From Methanomassiliicoccales archaeon PtaU1.Bin124 (GTDB lineage Archaea; Thermoplasmatota; Thermoplasmata; Methanomassiliicoccales; UBA472): 64,000 nt of DNA. Location: the NCBI GenBank assembly GCA_002067865.1, contig MVRC01000007.1:1-64000 (forward strand), written 5' to 3'. The notes under the pieces are model-generated. The model did not search any database and was not told the DNA's origin. It saw only the letters and a list, made by a program, of their open reading frames with translations. The position numbers were made by a program, and so were the translations under genes. Below, one piece after another: positions 41,496 to 47,069 of this stretch (positions are counted from its first letter, which is position 1; every line of letters begins with the position of its first letter).

Positions 41496-44400
41496 CTATC
41501 CCGCCCCAACGAACTTCACGTGGCCGCTCGAGCTCTCATATATCTCGCCAGCGCTCTTCATCTTCTTCAGGACCTCCCGGACCTCCTGCTCGCTCATCTT
41601 CCTCTCCTCGGCCTTGGAGAACAAGATATGCTCAGGGCAACCCTTCCTCGGGTCGGAGTTGTCCTGGATCAGCGTACGGACGATGGATATCTTGTTACGG
41701 TCGCTCCGGGTGGTGCCGCTCATGATGCGGTCCACGTCCTGCCCGCCGGAGTCCTTGGCCATCTTGGTCAGGTAGTAATCCACAATGCGGACGGAGCGTT
41801 GCGCGTCCTCCTTCATGACGACCGGGCTGAGGCGGATCCTGGCGGAGGCCTCGCTGAGGCGGATGAATGCCTCCAGCTGCCTGGCGGTGATCGGCACGGA
41901 GGAGTTCGGTCCCTCCCCTTTCTTCCTCACGGCCAGATATGTGTCCAGGATGATCTTCTGCGCGTCCTTGCTGAGGATGGGCGTGATGCGCTTGGCGTAC
42001 TTCACGTACTTCCTCATGAAGTCCGATTCGAAGTAGGGCTTGAACGATTCGGATTCGTTCAGGATCTCGTTGATATCGATGCCTTCCACATTGGACGTTA
42101 ACCCCTGCTTCAGGATGGCCCCTCTAGCATGACCCTTGATGATGTGCTCGGCGATGCGTGTGTCCTTCTCCTGATTTGGCTTGTCCAGCAAGGCGAAGAT
42201 CAGGTCGAAACGAGAGAGCAGTGCGGGCGGCATGTTGATCTGGTTCACCAGTGATTCGTTCTCGTCGAACCTGCCGTATTTCGGGTTCGCCGCTCCCAGC
42301 ACACATGTTCGGGATTGGAGCGTGGCAGTGATCCCGGCCTTGGCCACCGTGATGGAGTTGCCGCACCAGACGGCGATGCCGTTGCGCCGCACCAGTATGA
42401 CGTGGTCAGGGACCTCCACACAGTAGACCTTGCCATCATATTGCTGGCTGCTGACCTGGCCACGGTCCCCTCCGACAGTGATGCTGACCTGTTTCGGACT
42501 CTTCGATATCTTGATGCGGTATCTGTTGGGCCGGCGCTTCATCCAGCCCTTCCCGGAATCGTAGACGTAATCTGCCTGGAACGATGTCTCCACATCGCAT
42601 TGCCATCCTGCCCGCACAGAGAGCTCCTGGATATCGTCCGCCAGTCCTTTCGCGTACGTTCCCAACGCGGCAGATATCCATTCCGAACCTCCCCCCAGCT
42701 CGGCCACCAGGCGGTCCAGGAACAACTGGATCTGGTCCACCGGCAGCTCGAACACGTCCTGCGGCGCCCGTCGGTCGGCCGCACCCCCCAGATTGGCCAG
42801 CACCGAGGCAAGATTCTGGTCCAATATCTTCCAGGCGCTACCCTCAATGACCGGCTGTAGCCCCAGGGGTGCCATGCATGCCATCAGGCGCTGCATCTCC
42901 TCCTCGTCCCTTCCGGACATCACGACATTATGGGGGCTCCCTTCGACCAATTCCACGGAACCATGAGCGATATAACTGGCCAGGAAGCTCAGCCATATCT
43001 GAGGCTCGAACCCGATGTCGCTGAGGTCCAATGGGTCGGTGGGAAGCCAGCACGCGTTCTTCTTGAACGATATCCTGCTTCCGGACGGTATCTGGTCCAT
43101 CCTGACCAGGCGATAGTTCTCCGTGCTTCCCTCTGCCACGTACATGTTGTGGTTCGGCGTGACCACCAGATCGATCCCTTTCCCCCTGATGCTGTACATC
43201 TTTCCAGAATAGTCCGATTCGATGTACCCGGTCGGCGGGACGAAGGATATCACCCCGTTCCTGCCCAGAGACGCCACCCGGTCATGCTCGTCCAGGTCGC
43301 GGAAGAACTTCCAACCCCTGGCCGTGAGGACCTGGGTCCTGTCATCATAGCACTGGCTTTCCATGGCCTCATGCATGGAGCTTCTGTCCTGGTCGGTCAT
43401 CTTGTCCAGTTCGTCGATGCAGGCGATGCCCCTGTCTGCCAGTACGAGCGCTCCGGCCTCCAGGGTCCACCTTCCCTCGCCGAACTCGTCCTTGACCGCA
43501 GCGGCCGTATTGTGCACCAGGAAGCCGTTGGCCAGGAAGCAATGTGATCCCTCGACTGTCAGATCGTAAACGTTCTTAGGCAGGTTGCGGCTTATCAACC
43601 TCTTCTTTGCCACCTTCGACCAGACCATCCTTCCTTCGGGGCCGCGCATCATGACCTCGTCCTCCTCGATGATGTCCGAGGAACGGGTCCAGTCGCTTCC
43701 TGAACTGTTGCGGGTGAAAAGCCTCGTCTCTCCTGTGAGCTTGAGCTTTTTTCCGTTCGAAGCGGTTATCTCCACTAGAAATGAAGGGGTTGTCAGACGG
43801 AAGACAGACGTTACCGGCTTGATCAAGACGGCATCTTCGCCCTCTGCCGTGCTTACGCCGTTCACACGGACGTCCTGCTTCCATTCTCCTGCCCCGACCT
43901 CGATGGGCGAGGTCATATGTTCTTCCACGAACTCTCCGATCTTGACATCCTTGCCATCGATCTCGATCATCGCGTCTGGAGAAACACAGAGACCGGCGGC
44001 CGATGAGGATTTGCCCGATGCATAGATGCCACGAGGAGCCAGGTGCGACATGTACCTCAGAAGCTGGCTGTTGTGGTTGACTATCTCGTTGGCGATGAAG
44101 ATGTGGGTGTCCTTGATCTCCAGGTCATAGACATATGGTTCGGGCGGTTCTACGGTCTCGATGCTCCTGACCATGTCCCAGTCCCACCCGCGCTGGTAAC
44201 CGACGCTGCACTCGTCCTTTCCCCATTTGCCCTTGCCTTTCGATACTCCTATCATCTGGCCTTTGGAGATGTTCTTGGCCAGCATGGCCGAGACGTAGAT
44301 GCCGTTCTGCACGAACAGGGGGTGGGTCGGGGTCACCGTTATGCTCCTTCCTCCCTCGGTGGTAAACTTGAGCAGTTTGCTCGGGGCGGTCCTCTTCCAG

Positions 44401-45617
44401 ACCCTGATCGCCTTGCCCGGTTCGATGGCGCCCATCCAGGTGAATGTCAGCACATCGAGGTCCGTCTTGGCGTGAACGCCGTCGTCGACGTTCTCGACCG
44501 GCCCCTTGGCCAGGGCCTCCTCCACTATGTCCTTGATGGCCCTGGTGCATCCATCCGCCAGCATCACCTGGGAATCCCCTGTGACGCATTTGGCGACGCC
44601 CGGATCTCCTACGAGCAGGATATGGATGTCCCCTCTGACCTTCGTGCCATCGTCCAACTGCTTCGCCGAGCCGCCGAACAGCTGCAGAGCGATCGATTCC
44701 TTGACCTCATCATATCCTTTGATCGTGGGCGAGATGGACTTGATGATCTTTTCGAAGATGTCCTCGCTGCGCGCCTCCTCGATGATGCGCTTCTCGTCAT
44801 CCTCTGTGATCTCCACCTCTTCATACTCCTGCTCCTTCGATTCGATCGAGTGGACGTCGAGATGGATATCGAACAGGGTCGACTTCACCCGGTCGCCCTT
44901 CTGGACCGACCGCAGCACTCCATTCAGGCTGATGCGGTCGCCGGGAGAGATGCGACCGGCCTGGTCATCCTCCAGATAGGCTGTCAACCTTTCCGGCTGC
45001 GCCCCGCCCCTGAGACCTTCGGGATTCTCCTGGATCTCGATCTTCTGGGTATCGACATATTTCGATTCTTCCGGAAGCAAAGAGAACTTCGTGCTGCCAG
45101 CGGTCCTGCCGCAACCGTTCTGTTCCTTGTAGCACTCCAATGGCTCCTTGAAGAACAGGCTTTCCTGCGGCTCCACGATGATGGCCGGGCAACGGAAGCA
45201 CTTGAAATGGGCCTCGACGATCTTCGGCCTGACCTCGGTGGCCTTTCTGACCAACCCTTCGACCGATATCAATTTGCCCAGATGCTCGCTGCGAAGAAGT
45301 CGTATCTCGATCTTGTTGTTCTTCGGCAGCTCCTTGATGCGGAGGTGGATCTTGATCTCGCCCGACCTTCCCTGCTGCACCAGCTTCCTGATCGCCTTCT
45401 CTCCGATCTGCAGAACGGTATCGGGCGAGTCGAGCATCTGGAGGGCCATGTCCGTATCGAACATGTCCACTTCGTTGTAGGAGATGAAGACGCTGCGGAC
45501 CTCCGGGTAGCGATCGGCTACCTCCATTATCTTCAGCCGATTCTCGCTGGTCTCGAAGAACTCCTCCCAGCGGGCGAGCAGGTCATCATCGCTGTAGTTG
45601 ACAGGCAGAATGTTCAC
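41496..45617 (-). CDS. mcm: MCM replicative DNA helicase carrying three inteins
   Basis: The 1,373-residue precursor encodes the replicative helicase. Removing inteins of 173, 160 and 332 residues leaves about 708, normal for archaeal MCM. The extein has the N-terminal OB/zinc domain (CFRCPAI...CYKEQNGCG), Walker A split as GDPGVAK / SQLLRY, ASGKSSSAAGL / TAAAVKDEF, Walker B IACIDELDKM, HEAMESQ / SITVAKAGITATL, sensor LGAANPKYGRF and the arginine finger SRFDLIF. A C-terminal winged helix (residues about 1310-1373) closes it. The start is GTG 45617, with no clear separate ribosome-binding site. All three inteins sit at known MCM insertion positions in the AAA+ core. Splicing must occur three times for activity. 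Confidence 0.96.
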   Translation of the reverse strand: MNILPVNYSDDDLLARWEEFFETSENRLKIMEVADRYPEVRSVFISYNEVDMFDTDMALQMLDSPDTVLQIGEKAIRKLVQQGRSGEIKIHLRIKELPKNNKIEIRLLRSEHLGKLISVEGLVRKATEVRPKIVEAHFKCFRCPAIIVEPQESLFFKEPLECYKEQNGCGRTAGSTKFSLLPEESKYVDTQKIEIQENPEGLRGGAQPERLTAYLEDDQAGRISPGDRISLNGVLRSVQKGDRVKSTLFDIHLDVHSIESKEQEYEEVEITEDDEKRIIEEARSEDIFEKIIKSISPTIKGYDEVKESIALQLFGGSAKQLDDGTKVRGDIHILLVGDPGVAKCVTGDSQVMLADGCTRAIKDIVEEALAKGPVENVDDGVHAKTDLDVLTFTWMGAIEPGKAIRVWKRTAPSKLLKFTTEGGRSITVTPTHPLFVQNGIYVSAMLAKNISKGQMIGVSKGKGKWGKDECSVGYQRGWDWDMVRSIETVEPPEPYVYDLEIKDTHIFIANEIVNHNSQLLRYMSHLAPRGIYASGKSSSAAGLCVSPDAMIEIDGKDVKIGEFVEEHMTSPIEVGAGEWKQDVRVNGVSTAEGEDAVLIKPVTSVFRLTTPSFLVEITASNGKKLKLTGETRLFTRNSSGSDWTRSSDIIEEDEVMMRGPEGRMVWSKVAKKRLISRNLPKNVYDLTVEGSHCFLANGFLVHNTAAAVKDEFGEGRWTLEAGALVLADRGIACIDELDKMTDQDRSSMHEAMESQCYDDRTQVLTARGWKFFRDLDEHDRVASLGRNGVISFVPPTGYIESDYSGKMYSIRGKGIDLVVTPNHNMYVAEGSTENYRLVRMDQIPSGSRISFKKNACWLPTDPLDLSDIGFEPQIWLSFLASYIAHGSVELVEGSPHNVVMSGRDEEEMQRLMACMAPLGLQPVIEGSAWKILDQNLASVLANLGGAADRRAPQDVFELPVDQIQLFLDRLVAELGGGSEWISAALGTYAKGLADDIQELSVRAGWQCDVETSFQADYVYDSGKGWMKRRPNRYRIKISKSPKQVSITVGGDRGQVSSQQYDGKVYCVEVPDHVILVRRNGIAVWCGNSITVAKAGITATLQSRTCVLGAANPKYGRFDENESLVNQINMPPALLSRFDLIFALLDKPNQEKDTRIAEHIIKGHARGAILKQGLTSNVEGIDINEILNESESFKPYFESDFMRKYVKYAKRITPILSKDAQKIILDTYLAVRKKGEGPNSSVPITARQLEAFIRLSEASARIRLSPVVMKEDAQRSVRIVDYYLTKMAKDSGGQDVDRIMSGTTRSDRNKISIVRTLIQDNSDPRKGCPEHILFSKAEERKMSEQEVREVLKKMKSAGEIYESSSGHVKFVGAG
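42357..43352 (-). mobile_element. MCM intein 3 with degenerate LAGLIDADG domain
   Basis: This 332-residue intein (precursor residues 756-1087) lies between HEAMESQ and extein SITVAKAG. It starts CYDDRTQVLTARG, has block B TPNH and ends AVWCGN, so Gly replaces the usual penultimate His. The central part shows two LAGLIDADG-like helices, FLASYIAHG (about 123-131) and FLDRLVAELGG (about 211-221). The first lacks the acidic catalytic residue (His instead). It is therefore probably a decayed endonuclease inside a splicing-competent intein. Confidence 0.9.
43509..43988 (-). mobile_element. MCM intein 2 (mini-intein, GKSSSAAGL site)
   Basis: This 160-residue intein (precursor residues 544-703) is inserted between AAGL and extein TAAAV. 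It begins with Cys (CVSPDAMIEIDGK) and ends FLANGFLVHN, followed by extein Thr. In block B the usual TxxH is replaced by TGET (KLTGETRLFTR), so the His that assists the first N-S acyl shift is missing. No endonuclease is present. Confidence 0.92.
44070..44588 (-). mobile_element. MCM intein 1 (mini-intein, Walker A site)
   Basis: This 173-residue intein (precursor residues 344-516) is inserted between Lys of GDPGVAK and Ser of SQLLRY. It starts with Cys (CVTGDSQVML), has block B TPTHPLFV and ends IANEIVNHN before extein Ser. There is no room for an endonuclease domain, so it is a mini-intein dependent on the precise splicing blocks only. Confidence 0.93.
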
Positions 45618-45787: not shown

Positions 45788-46315
45788 CTATTCCGCATCC
45801 TCCCTCGCCTCCGGGATGTACTCCCTCATGATGCTGACCACCTCACCGCTGGTCTCTGCAGCGGAATATCTTTCCAGTGGCTCTCTGTTCAGATCCAGGA
45901 AGTTCGGCCCCCATTTGAACTTGTTCAGGATGTCCTCAGCCTGTTTCTTATCGCCGAGGATGTAAACGGCCGCGGCAAGCGCCTCGGCGGAGCTGAGCCT
46001 CATGGGCTTCCCCCAGTTGATCGGGTTGGCGGCCAGAAGGTAAGGAAGCCCCCTTTGCGCCAGGTCATGGCGCATCTCCGGCCATTTGTCAATGTTCGCC
46101 CAGGACAGGTCCATTACGACGACGCCATGCTGTTTGGCTCGAGGGATGTCCTCCGGTGACAGCGCCTTCTCGGCCATCGGGTTCAGGACTATGGAACCAT
46201 ATGGGAGACGGCGGATCGAGCCGACCTCTTGCACCAGATGGAATCGGATCATCTTCTTGGTGGTGCACTTCTTTGGGTCGCAGTCGCCTTCATCGTAGAC
46301 AAAAACGGGAAGCAT
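45788..46315 (-). CDS. tsr3: Tsr3-type rRNA aminocarboxypropyltransferase (DUF367)
   Basis: Tsr3 transfers the aminocarboxypropyl group from SAM to a hypermodified uridine of small-subunit rRNA. The start is ATG 46315 (MLPVFVYDEGDCDPKKCT), preceded by CAGGTGAG; the longer frame would run into arsC. The 175-residue product has the RLI-like N-terminal segment DEGDCDPKKCTTKKMI, followed by IVLNPMAEKALSPEDI, VVMDLSWANID and the C-terminal LPYLLAANPINWGKPMRLSSAEALAAA. It starts one base after the arsC stop, in an apparent two-gene operon. The overlap with NMD3 and the C/D sRNA nearby adds to ribosome maturation functions in this region. Confidence 0.92.
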   Translation of the reverse strand: MLPVFVYDEGDCDPKKCTTKKMIRFHLVQEVGSIRRLPYGSIVLNPMAEKALSPEDIPRAKQHGVVVMDLSWANIDKWPEMRHDLAQRGLPYLLAANPINWGKPMRLSSAEALAAAVYILGDKKQAEDILNKFKWGPNFLDLNREPLERYSAAETSGEVVSIMREYIPEAREDAE

Positions 46316-46316
46316 C

Positions 46317-46742
46317 TCACCTGCTCCGGCCAAAGGTGCTCTTGAGGAACTGGCGGATCTCATCCCTCGAGGCACGGAACTCTTTCAGGACCTGCTCCTC
46401 CGTGCCCTTGGCCGTGGCCGGGTCCTTCAGGCCTTCATGGATGTAATCCTTGCCCTCGATGAAGAACGGGCATTCCTCTTCAGCCTCATCGCAAAGGGTG
46501 ACGACCAGGTCGAGGTCCTTGCCGTAATATTCCTCGACGCTCTTTGCCTTCTGCTTGCTGATGTCGATCCCGATCTCCTTCATCACCCTGATGGCGTTCA
46601 GGTTGATCTTCCCGGGCTGCGTTCCGGCGCTGAAAGCTTCGTACCGGTCACCGTAGAATGTTCGCATCATCCCCTCGGCCATCTGTGAACGGGCCGAGTT
46701 ATGGGAACAAATGAAGAGCACAGTCTGTTTAGGCCTTGGCAT
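46317..46742 (-). CDS. arsC: Arsenate reductase ArsC (low-molecular-weight phosphatase type)
   Basis: This 141-residue protein has the P-loop CSHNSARS (C-x5-R-S pattern, residues about 12-19) and the thioredoxin-coupled ArsC signature VVTLCDEAEEECPFF with the two resolving cysteines. It reduces arsenate to arsenite with electrons from thioredoxin. The ATG at 46742 begins MPRPKQTVLFICSHN; the preceding bases show no ribosome-binding site, so it may be leaderless. No arsenite efflux gene or ArsR is adjacent. It is co-transcribed with tsr3, an unusual pairing. Confidence 0.9.
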   Translation of the reverse strand: MPRPKQTVLFICSHNSARSQMAEGMMRTFYGDRYEAFSAGTQPGKINLNAIRVMKEIGIDISKQKAKSVEEYYGKDLDLVVTLCDEAEEECPFFIEGKDYIHEGLKDPATAKGTEEQVLKEFRASRDEIRQFLKSTFGRSR

Positions 46743-46921
46743 ATAGGTCCGCCCCTTGGAACAGGTTTATGGAAGGACTGTTGGGCGATTGACGCCAGTG
46801 ATGGCGGTCTGCCCGTGAAGTGTGATGATATACCCCATTGGATTTGGGAGCATAATGCTTTTGATTGTACGTTTGCACAACCAGGGATAGGTTTATTTTC
46901 AGGAGGGCCTATGGTTCGGAT
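46743..46921. other. Gene-free stretch upstream of the C/D sRNA candidate
   Basis: Together with 46982-47069 this forms a 327-bp gap between arsC and the pilin gene, apart from the C/D RNA. It holds the promoter region of arsC on the minus strand and, at about 46889-46897, GGTTTATTT, a TATA-like element placed about 27 bp before the sRNA. A box C consensus GTGATGA near 46823 has no partner box D. No protein gene is supported. Confidence 0.5.
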
Positions 46922-46981
46922 GCCACGATGATGATGAACCCAGCTCTGAACTGATGAGGAGAGACGGGCGAGCTGAGTGGC
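46922..46981 (+). ncRNA. Box C/D sRNA candidate with two guides
   Basis: Elements in order: terminal stem GCCAC (46922-46926), box C ATGATGA (46928-46934), an 11-nt guide, box D' CTGA (46946-46949), box C' CTGATGA (46951-46957), a 15-nt guide, box D CTGA (46973-46976), closing stem GTGGC (46977-46981). The total length of 60 nt is typical of archaeal C/D sRNAs that direct 2'-O-methylation. The D' guide TGAACCCAGCT is complementary to AGCTGGGTTCA of the large-subunit rRNA peptidyl-transferase region. The D guide contains GACGGGCG, complementary to CGCCCGTC of the small-subunit decoding site. Targets are recalled from rRNA knowledge, not searched. Confidence 0.75.
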
Positions 46982-47069
46982 AATATTACTTTAGAAATTA
47001 ATCATTATCGAATAATAAAAAATGGAATAAAGTCAAAGGGGTGAATCACCTCTTTGACTGTAAATTTGT

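Follow-up and report, generated by a model that had tools for sequence, protein, structure and literature searches.

Known modifiers of 16S rRNA position C1402

The ribose of C1402 in 16S rRNA is methylated by a protein in bacteria and with the help of C/D RNAs in eukaryotes. For the archaea, Gaspin et al. reportedly predicted in 2000 that sR12 guides modification of a site equivalent to the one served by yeast snR70. In the discussion of sR12 as a predicted guide for the C1402 equivalent, orthology with SNORD43/snR70 has been raised as a possibility (PMC3511168). SNORD43 (U43), snR70 and AtU43 direct the formation of Cm at positions 1703 of human, 1639 of yeast and 1645 of Arabidopsis 18S rRNA, all of which correspond to C1402 (PMC11542601, PMC3511168). 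The bacterial enzyme RsmI 2'-O-methylates the same base, but it is a stand-alone protein that is not guided by RNA (PMC11542601). In the 30S subunit of P. abyssi, Cm at the C1402 equivalent was seen by cryo-EM and LC-HRMS as Cm1376 (PMC7005279). We infer the correspondence of Cm1376 to C1402 from that of hm5C1378 to E. coli position 1404. Another list, which also contains human Cm1703, yeast Cm1639 and E. coli Cm1402, gives Cm1369 as a P. abyssi equivalent (PMC11542601).

The element described here comprises 60 nt at positions 46922-46981 (+) of the window, i.e. the 64-kb stretch of DNA that was analysed. With sR12 of Pyrococcus and Sulfolobus (RF01147) it shares the predicted C1402-equivalent function, and the functional equivalence is taken from the literature. 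The RF01147 consensus does not visibly carry the guide core GACGGGCG of the element, and our claim is limited to a shared predicted function, without membership or homology. Against this model the element scores 13.8 bits and does not reach the gathering threshold of 38, and the best of its relatives (L251) scores 28.4 bits. SNORD43, snR70 and AtU43 belong to eukaryotic RNPs, unlike the archaeal element, and the SNORD43/snR70 covariance models RF00221 and RF01238 gave no match to it up to E = 10. The box architecture is the same as in Pyrococcus sR2, sR18, sR1, snoPyro_CD and sR60, but the guides of the element differ and the scores remain below the gathering thresholds. No Rfam family was matched at gathering threshold. 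When the limits are relaxed, matches to about 30 C/D families appear, all on the + strand, the best being Pyrococcus sR2 (29.8 bits, E 2.6e-5, below its gathering cut-off). The element is thus recognisable as a C/D RNA outside the curated families. Its description fills an annotation gap, left by an RNA that is under all Rfam thresholds, in an order of methanogens often found in guts and wetlands.

In view of what is already known about C1402 modification and its guides in archaea and eukaryotes, the locus is less novel than an initial sequence-only reading had implied. What is new is the predicted Gm2581 modification in 23S rRNA, the turnover of the partner guide around a fixed C1402 guide, and the conserved linkage to Tsr3. 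Very probably, the element is an independently transcribed C/D sRNA that guides methylation of both 16S C1402 and 23S G2581, with an old and fixed C1402 function and a partner guide that was exchanged or lost elsewhere.

Box C/D architecture of the element

The element has the composition GCCAC-G-ATGATGA-TGAACCCAGCT-CTGA-ACTG-ATGAGGA-GA-GACGGGCG-AG-CTGA-GTGGC. The 5' arm of the terminal stem (GCCAC, 46922..46926) pairs with the 3' arm (GTGGC, 46977..46981). Between the arms, all on the + strand, lie box C (ATGATGA, 46928..46934, kept as RTGATGA in homologues), the D' guide (TGAACCCAGCT, 46935..46945), box D' (CTGA, 46946..46949), box C' (ATGAGGA, 46954..46960), the core of the D guide (GACGGGCG, 46963..46970) and box D (CTGA, 46973..46976). 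Boxes D' and D were assigned from the sequence together with its homologues. Archaeal box C/D sRNAs are described as having box C (RUGAUGA), D', C' and D (CUGA) within 50-70 nt (PMC7994747). This box order and length are found in the element, and its D' guide, with 11 pairs to 23S rRNA, exceeds the complementarity of at least about 9 pairs expected at N+5.

The sequence-only reading had described the stem and boxes C, D' and D exactly as they are, and its identification of a box C/D sRNA agrees with the comparative evidence presented below. The exception is box C', which it had placed at 46951-46957 (CTGATGA). Homologues put this box at 46954-46960, 12 nt from box D, where relatives carry RTGATGA or RTGARGA. 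In this homologous register, the spacer between D' and C' has a normal length of 4 nt, and the objection that it measured only 1 nt is removed. Among homologues, both the length and the sequence of this spacer vary freely.

A scan of both strands of the 64-kb window found the complete C-D'-C'-D motif in one place, which is this element, and the motif was absent from 150 Markov-1 simulated windows. The RNAfold energy of the element (z = -1.23) is uninformative. The overlap of its 5' end with a 76-aa ORF (46701-46931) could be taken as a sign of a piece of protein-coding region, or of a chance C/D look-alike. Such an origin is extremely unlikely given the absence of the motif from the simulated sequence, the conservation across order and phylum that is limited to the element while the flanks are unrelated, and the changes in spacer length, which are not multiples of three. 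Judged from its sequence and that of its homologues, the element is a box C/D sRNA gene of an uncultured Methanomassiliicoccales archaeon, very probably a single-copy one. Genes for fibrillarin and Nop5, together with two of the L7Ae family, are present in the genome. The 60-nt RNA would form a C/D kink-turn, with the GCCAC/GTGGC stem closing it, and an additional internal C'/D' motif, and L7Ae, Nop5 and fibrillarin would assemble on it.

Conservation among relatives

A search with a 100-base DNA query matched the element in 52 of the 81 genomes of the order, own genome counted. An exact pattern, run over 84,980 species genomes, matched 82 contigs, the titles of which name Methanomassiliicoccales, Methanomethylophilaceae, Methanoplasma, Thermoplasmata/Thermoplasmatales or Euryarchaeota. 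Judged by contig identity, the MAGs UBA472 and fen_33 belong to the family of the window, here called f1. Among homologues, the identity in the D half of the element is 0.91-1.0, compared with 0.13-0.45 in the flanks, which is chance level. The terminal stem covaries in the set of 97 distinct homologues, where the compensatory variants GCCGC/GCGGC and GCCCC/GGGGC occur beside GCCAC/GTGGC.

Across the phylum, the D guide is the most conserved part of the element. A pattern consisting of a box, GACGGGCG, 0 to 3 nt and CTGA was found in 67 of 392 genomes, as opposed to 2 matches of the reversed pattern. In nearly all of these matches GACGGGCG ends exactly 2 nt before CTGA, so that the N+5 base is unchanged. 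Family f8, which belongs to the same class, has the D guide GACGGGCGG with 9 pairs, and the G182 relatives likewise have 9. Loss of the sRNA from family f6 was considered, since all matches of the exact pattern there were either coding or random, yet a weak DNA match in G035 (L258) proved to be a full C/D element with GATGGGCG, in which a G-U replaces a G-C pair, and the idea was abandoned.

Predicted target of the D guide

The 16S and 23S rRNA sequences in the assembly of the window are fragments that end before both targets, and complementarity was therefore measured on the rRNAs of relatives. Fragments of 16S and 23S rRNA are located in G000 at contig ends, on separate contigs (C16 and C18; L001 and L004). 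In a relative with a complete, single-contig genome (G002), the 16S and 23S genes are about 47 kb apart, and its rRNA genes are thus unlinked.

The D guide GACGGGCG forms 8 of 8 possible Watson-Crick pairs with CGCCCGTC of 16S rRNA, and the site CACCGCCCGTC is invariant in every relative examined. With 2 nt between the guide core and box D, the N+5 base is C1402 when mapped to E. coli, and it is always C1402 across homologues. The criterion of Dennis et al. 2015 is a complementarity of 9 pairs, and the D guide here has 8. As evidence by itself, the 8-pair complementarity was dropped, because a run of 8 pairs arises at some place in the rRNAs for 83% of shuffled D regions. The case for the D target is therefore based on conservation. 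A longer alternative target containing CTCGCCCG was discarded as well, as it is absent from the rRNAs and matches in a single flank only. The AG dinucleotide between the guide core and box D (46971-46972) is kept in almost all Methanomassiliicoccales homologues, and does not pair with 16S rRNA.

The conservation of the guide and its fixed 2-nt spacing support the prediction that it directs methylation at the 16S C1402 equivalent. This target, and the number of about 8 contiguous pairs, had already been proposed from the sequence. By pairing with CGCCCGUC, the guide would direct a 2'-O-methyl group to the C1402 equivalent, a base of the P site in the decoding centre.

Predicted target of the D' guide

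The D' guide forms 11 contiguous pairs with AGCTGGGTTTA of 23S rRNA, 10 of them Watson-Crick and one G-U, and this 23S segment is identical in every Methanomassiliicoccales member examined. In most relatives, all 11 pairs are of the Watson-Crick type. The guide contains TGAACCC in this genome and TAAACCC in relatives, and either G or A can pair with U. Among 300 shuffled D' guides, a single one reached 11 pairs. Mapped to E. coli, the N+5 base corresponds to G2581 by the standard numbering; in rrlA, with its one extra base, the position is 2582. The core of the guide, AACCCAGC (GACCCAGC in one case), is kept in 18 homologues from families f1 and f5, and in these two families only. Pairing of 11 nt to an invariant site in two families argues for the target near 23S position 2581 that the sequence-only reading had suggested. 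The same reading had named a lack of pairing of at least 9 nt in either rRNA as the finding that would speak against it; with the 23S rRNA of relatives, the D' guide forms 11 pairs.

The pairing with AGCUGGGUUUA would direct 2'-O-methylation of G2581, beside the peptidyl-transferase centre. No report of a modified 23S G2581 was found in the literature, and Gm2581 is a predicted new modification that is apparently unreported. In yeast, Am2946 and Cm2948 are listed as modified; by the offset between Um2921 and U2552, these are 4 and 2 nt from G2581.

The D' guide may also be considered in relation to a site in helix 44 of 16S rRNA (AGUUGGGUUUC). This site follows the D target downstream at a distance of about 20 nt, and the sRNA would then be a classical double guide acting on a single helix instead of on both subunits. 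Local double guides account for about half of archaeal C/D sRNAs (PMC4644070), and the guide of relatives, TAAACCCAGCT, forms 10 pairs (1 G-U) with the helix-44 site, close to the D target. However, this site reads GGGTCTC in three relatives (G006, G025, G028), which breaks the pairing, although the guides there are still AAACCC. The 23S site, in contrast, is invariant and pairs over 11 nt without a mismatch. Helix 44 was rejected as the D' target on these grounds, and a double guide on this helix appears quite improbable.

Turnover of the partner guide

In family f8, the D' guide is GTTCAGCCTTAG, with 9 pairs to AAGGCTGAA of 16S rRNA; the D' guide sequence GUUCAGCCU is common to the f8 homologues and Pyrococcus sR60. 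A search of the rRNAs for conserved sites that would convincingly match the D' guides of the Methanomethylophilaceae and of L124, L060 and L144 found none. In the Methanomethylophilaceae, the D' interval is T-rich, and variable in length and sequence. In one member of this family (L105), box D' is gone (ACATTTTTTTTTTTTTTTCTGATGA), an apparent transition from a double to a single guide.

The variable D' interval of the Methanomethylophilaceae and the locus without box D' indicate that a conserved D' target is not required for the RNA to function. It could be, then, that the D guide to C1402 is the only working one also in the element of the window, and that the D'-23S match is structural, incidental, or serves a chaperone role without methylation. 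Both empty guides and chaperone roles have already been described. Against this stands the D' core, which is conserved in f1 and f5 and pairs over 11 nt, and we therefore regard a single-target sRNA as unlikely.

The suggestion that one RNA guides modification of both functional centres of the ribosome is supported for both targets in f1 and f5, but does not extend to the rest of the order and phylum, where the partner guide is a different one or has degenerated. As far as can be read from the sequences, one guide of the sRNA, that for C1402, is fixed, and the other can be exchanged; in f1, the latter points to 23S G2581. The C1402 function would be the old one, with the partner guide exchanged or lost in other lineages. 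With the C1402 guide kept and its partner turning over, the sRNA provides a clear case of strong purifying selection beside a freely evolving guide.

Genomic context and linkage to Tsr3

The sRNA is located in an intergenic stretch, with a leftward phosphatase-like gene on one side and a leftward archaeal pilin gene on the other. It is preceded by the TATA-like sequence TTTATT (46892..46897, +), the centre of which is about 27 nt upstream of the 5' end of the sRNA, with TTTAT starting 30 nt upstream. This element, already noted from the sequence at about 27 bp, is real, as 43 of the 97 distinct homologues also have a TTTA[A/T] that starts 26-34 nt upstream. It suggests that the sRNA has its own promoter, a feature shared by no more than about 20% of the archaeal C/D genes (PMC7994747). 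A scan for bacterial promoters and terminators gave no match, as expected for archaea.

Tsr3 makes the acp group on the P-site base of h31. The acp position in H. volcanii is 910/966 (PMC2584109), and Tsr3 is also named in the work on the P. abyssi 30S subunit (PMC7005279). In the window, a Tsr3-type ribosome biogenesis protein (Pfam Ribo_biogen_C and Fer4_RLI) is encoded at 45788..46375 (-). Between it and the sRNA lies the phosphatase-like gene (46317..46742, -; low-molecular-weight phosphatase / arsenate-reductase-like, Pfam PF01451), which is found in the same place in relatives. Tsr3 is upstream of the sRNA and divergent from it in 72 loci, and other arrangements were found in none. In the 82-contig pattern set, counting one locus per contig, Tsr3 is upstream and divergent in 47 of the 67 loci for which 1.3 kb or more of DNA is available on the upstream side. 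As this arrangement is kept, two P-site modifiers are genetically linked across the order. The linkage suggests a genomic unit for modification of the 30S P site, and a functional link between Tsr3 and the C1402 sRNA may exist. A more far-reaching proposal, which we consider rather unlikely, is that in this order the conserved divergent Tsr3 and the fixed C1402 guide form a P-site modification module, and that through the exchangeable second guide, here aimed at Gm2581, a single RNP reaches the decoding as well as the peptidyl-transferase centre. If true, maturation of the two subunits might be coordinated in this way.

An inverted repeat (gtcaaaggggtgaatcacctctttgact) at 47034-47060, between the sRNA and the pilin gene, is possibly a terminator. 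Further away, at 41496-45617 (-), there is an MCM helicase gene with three Intein_splicing stretches, which probably represent three inteins.
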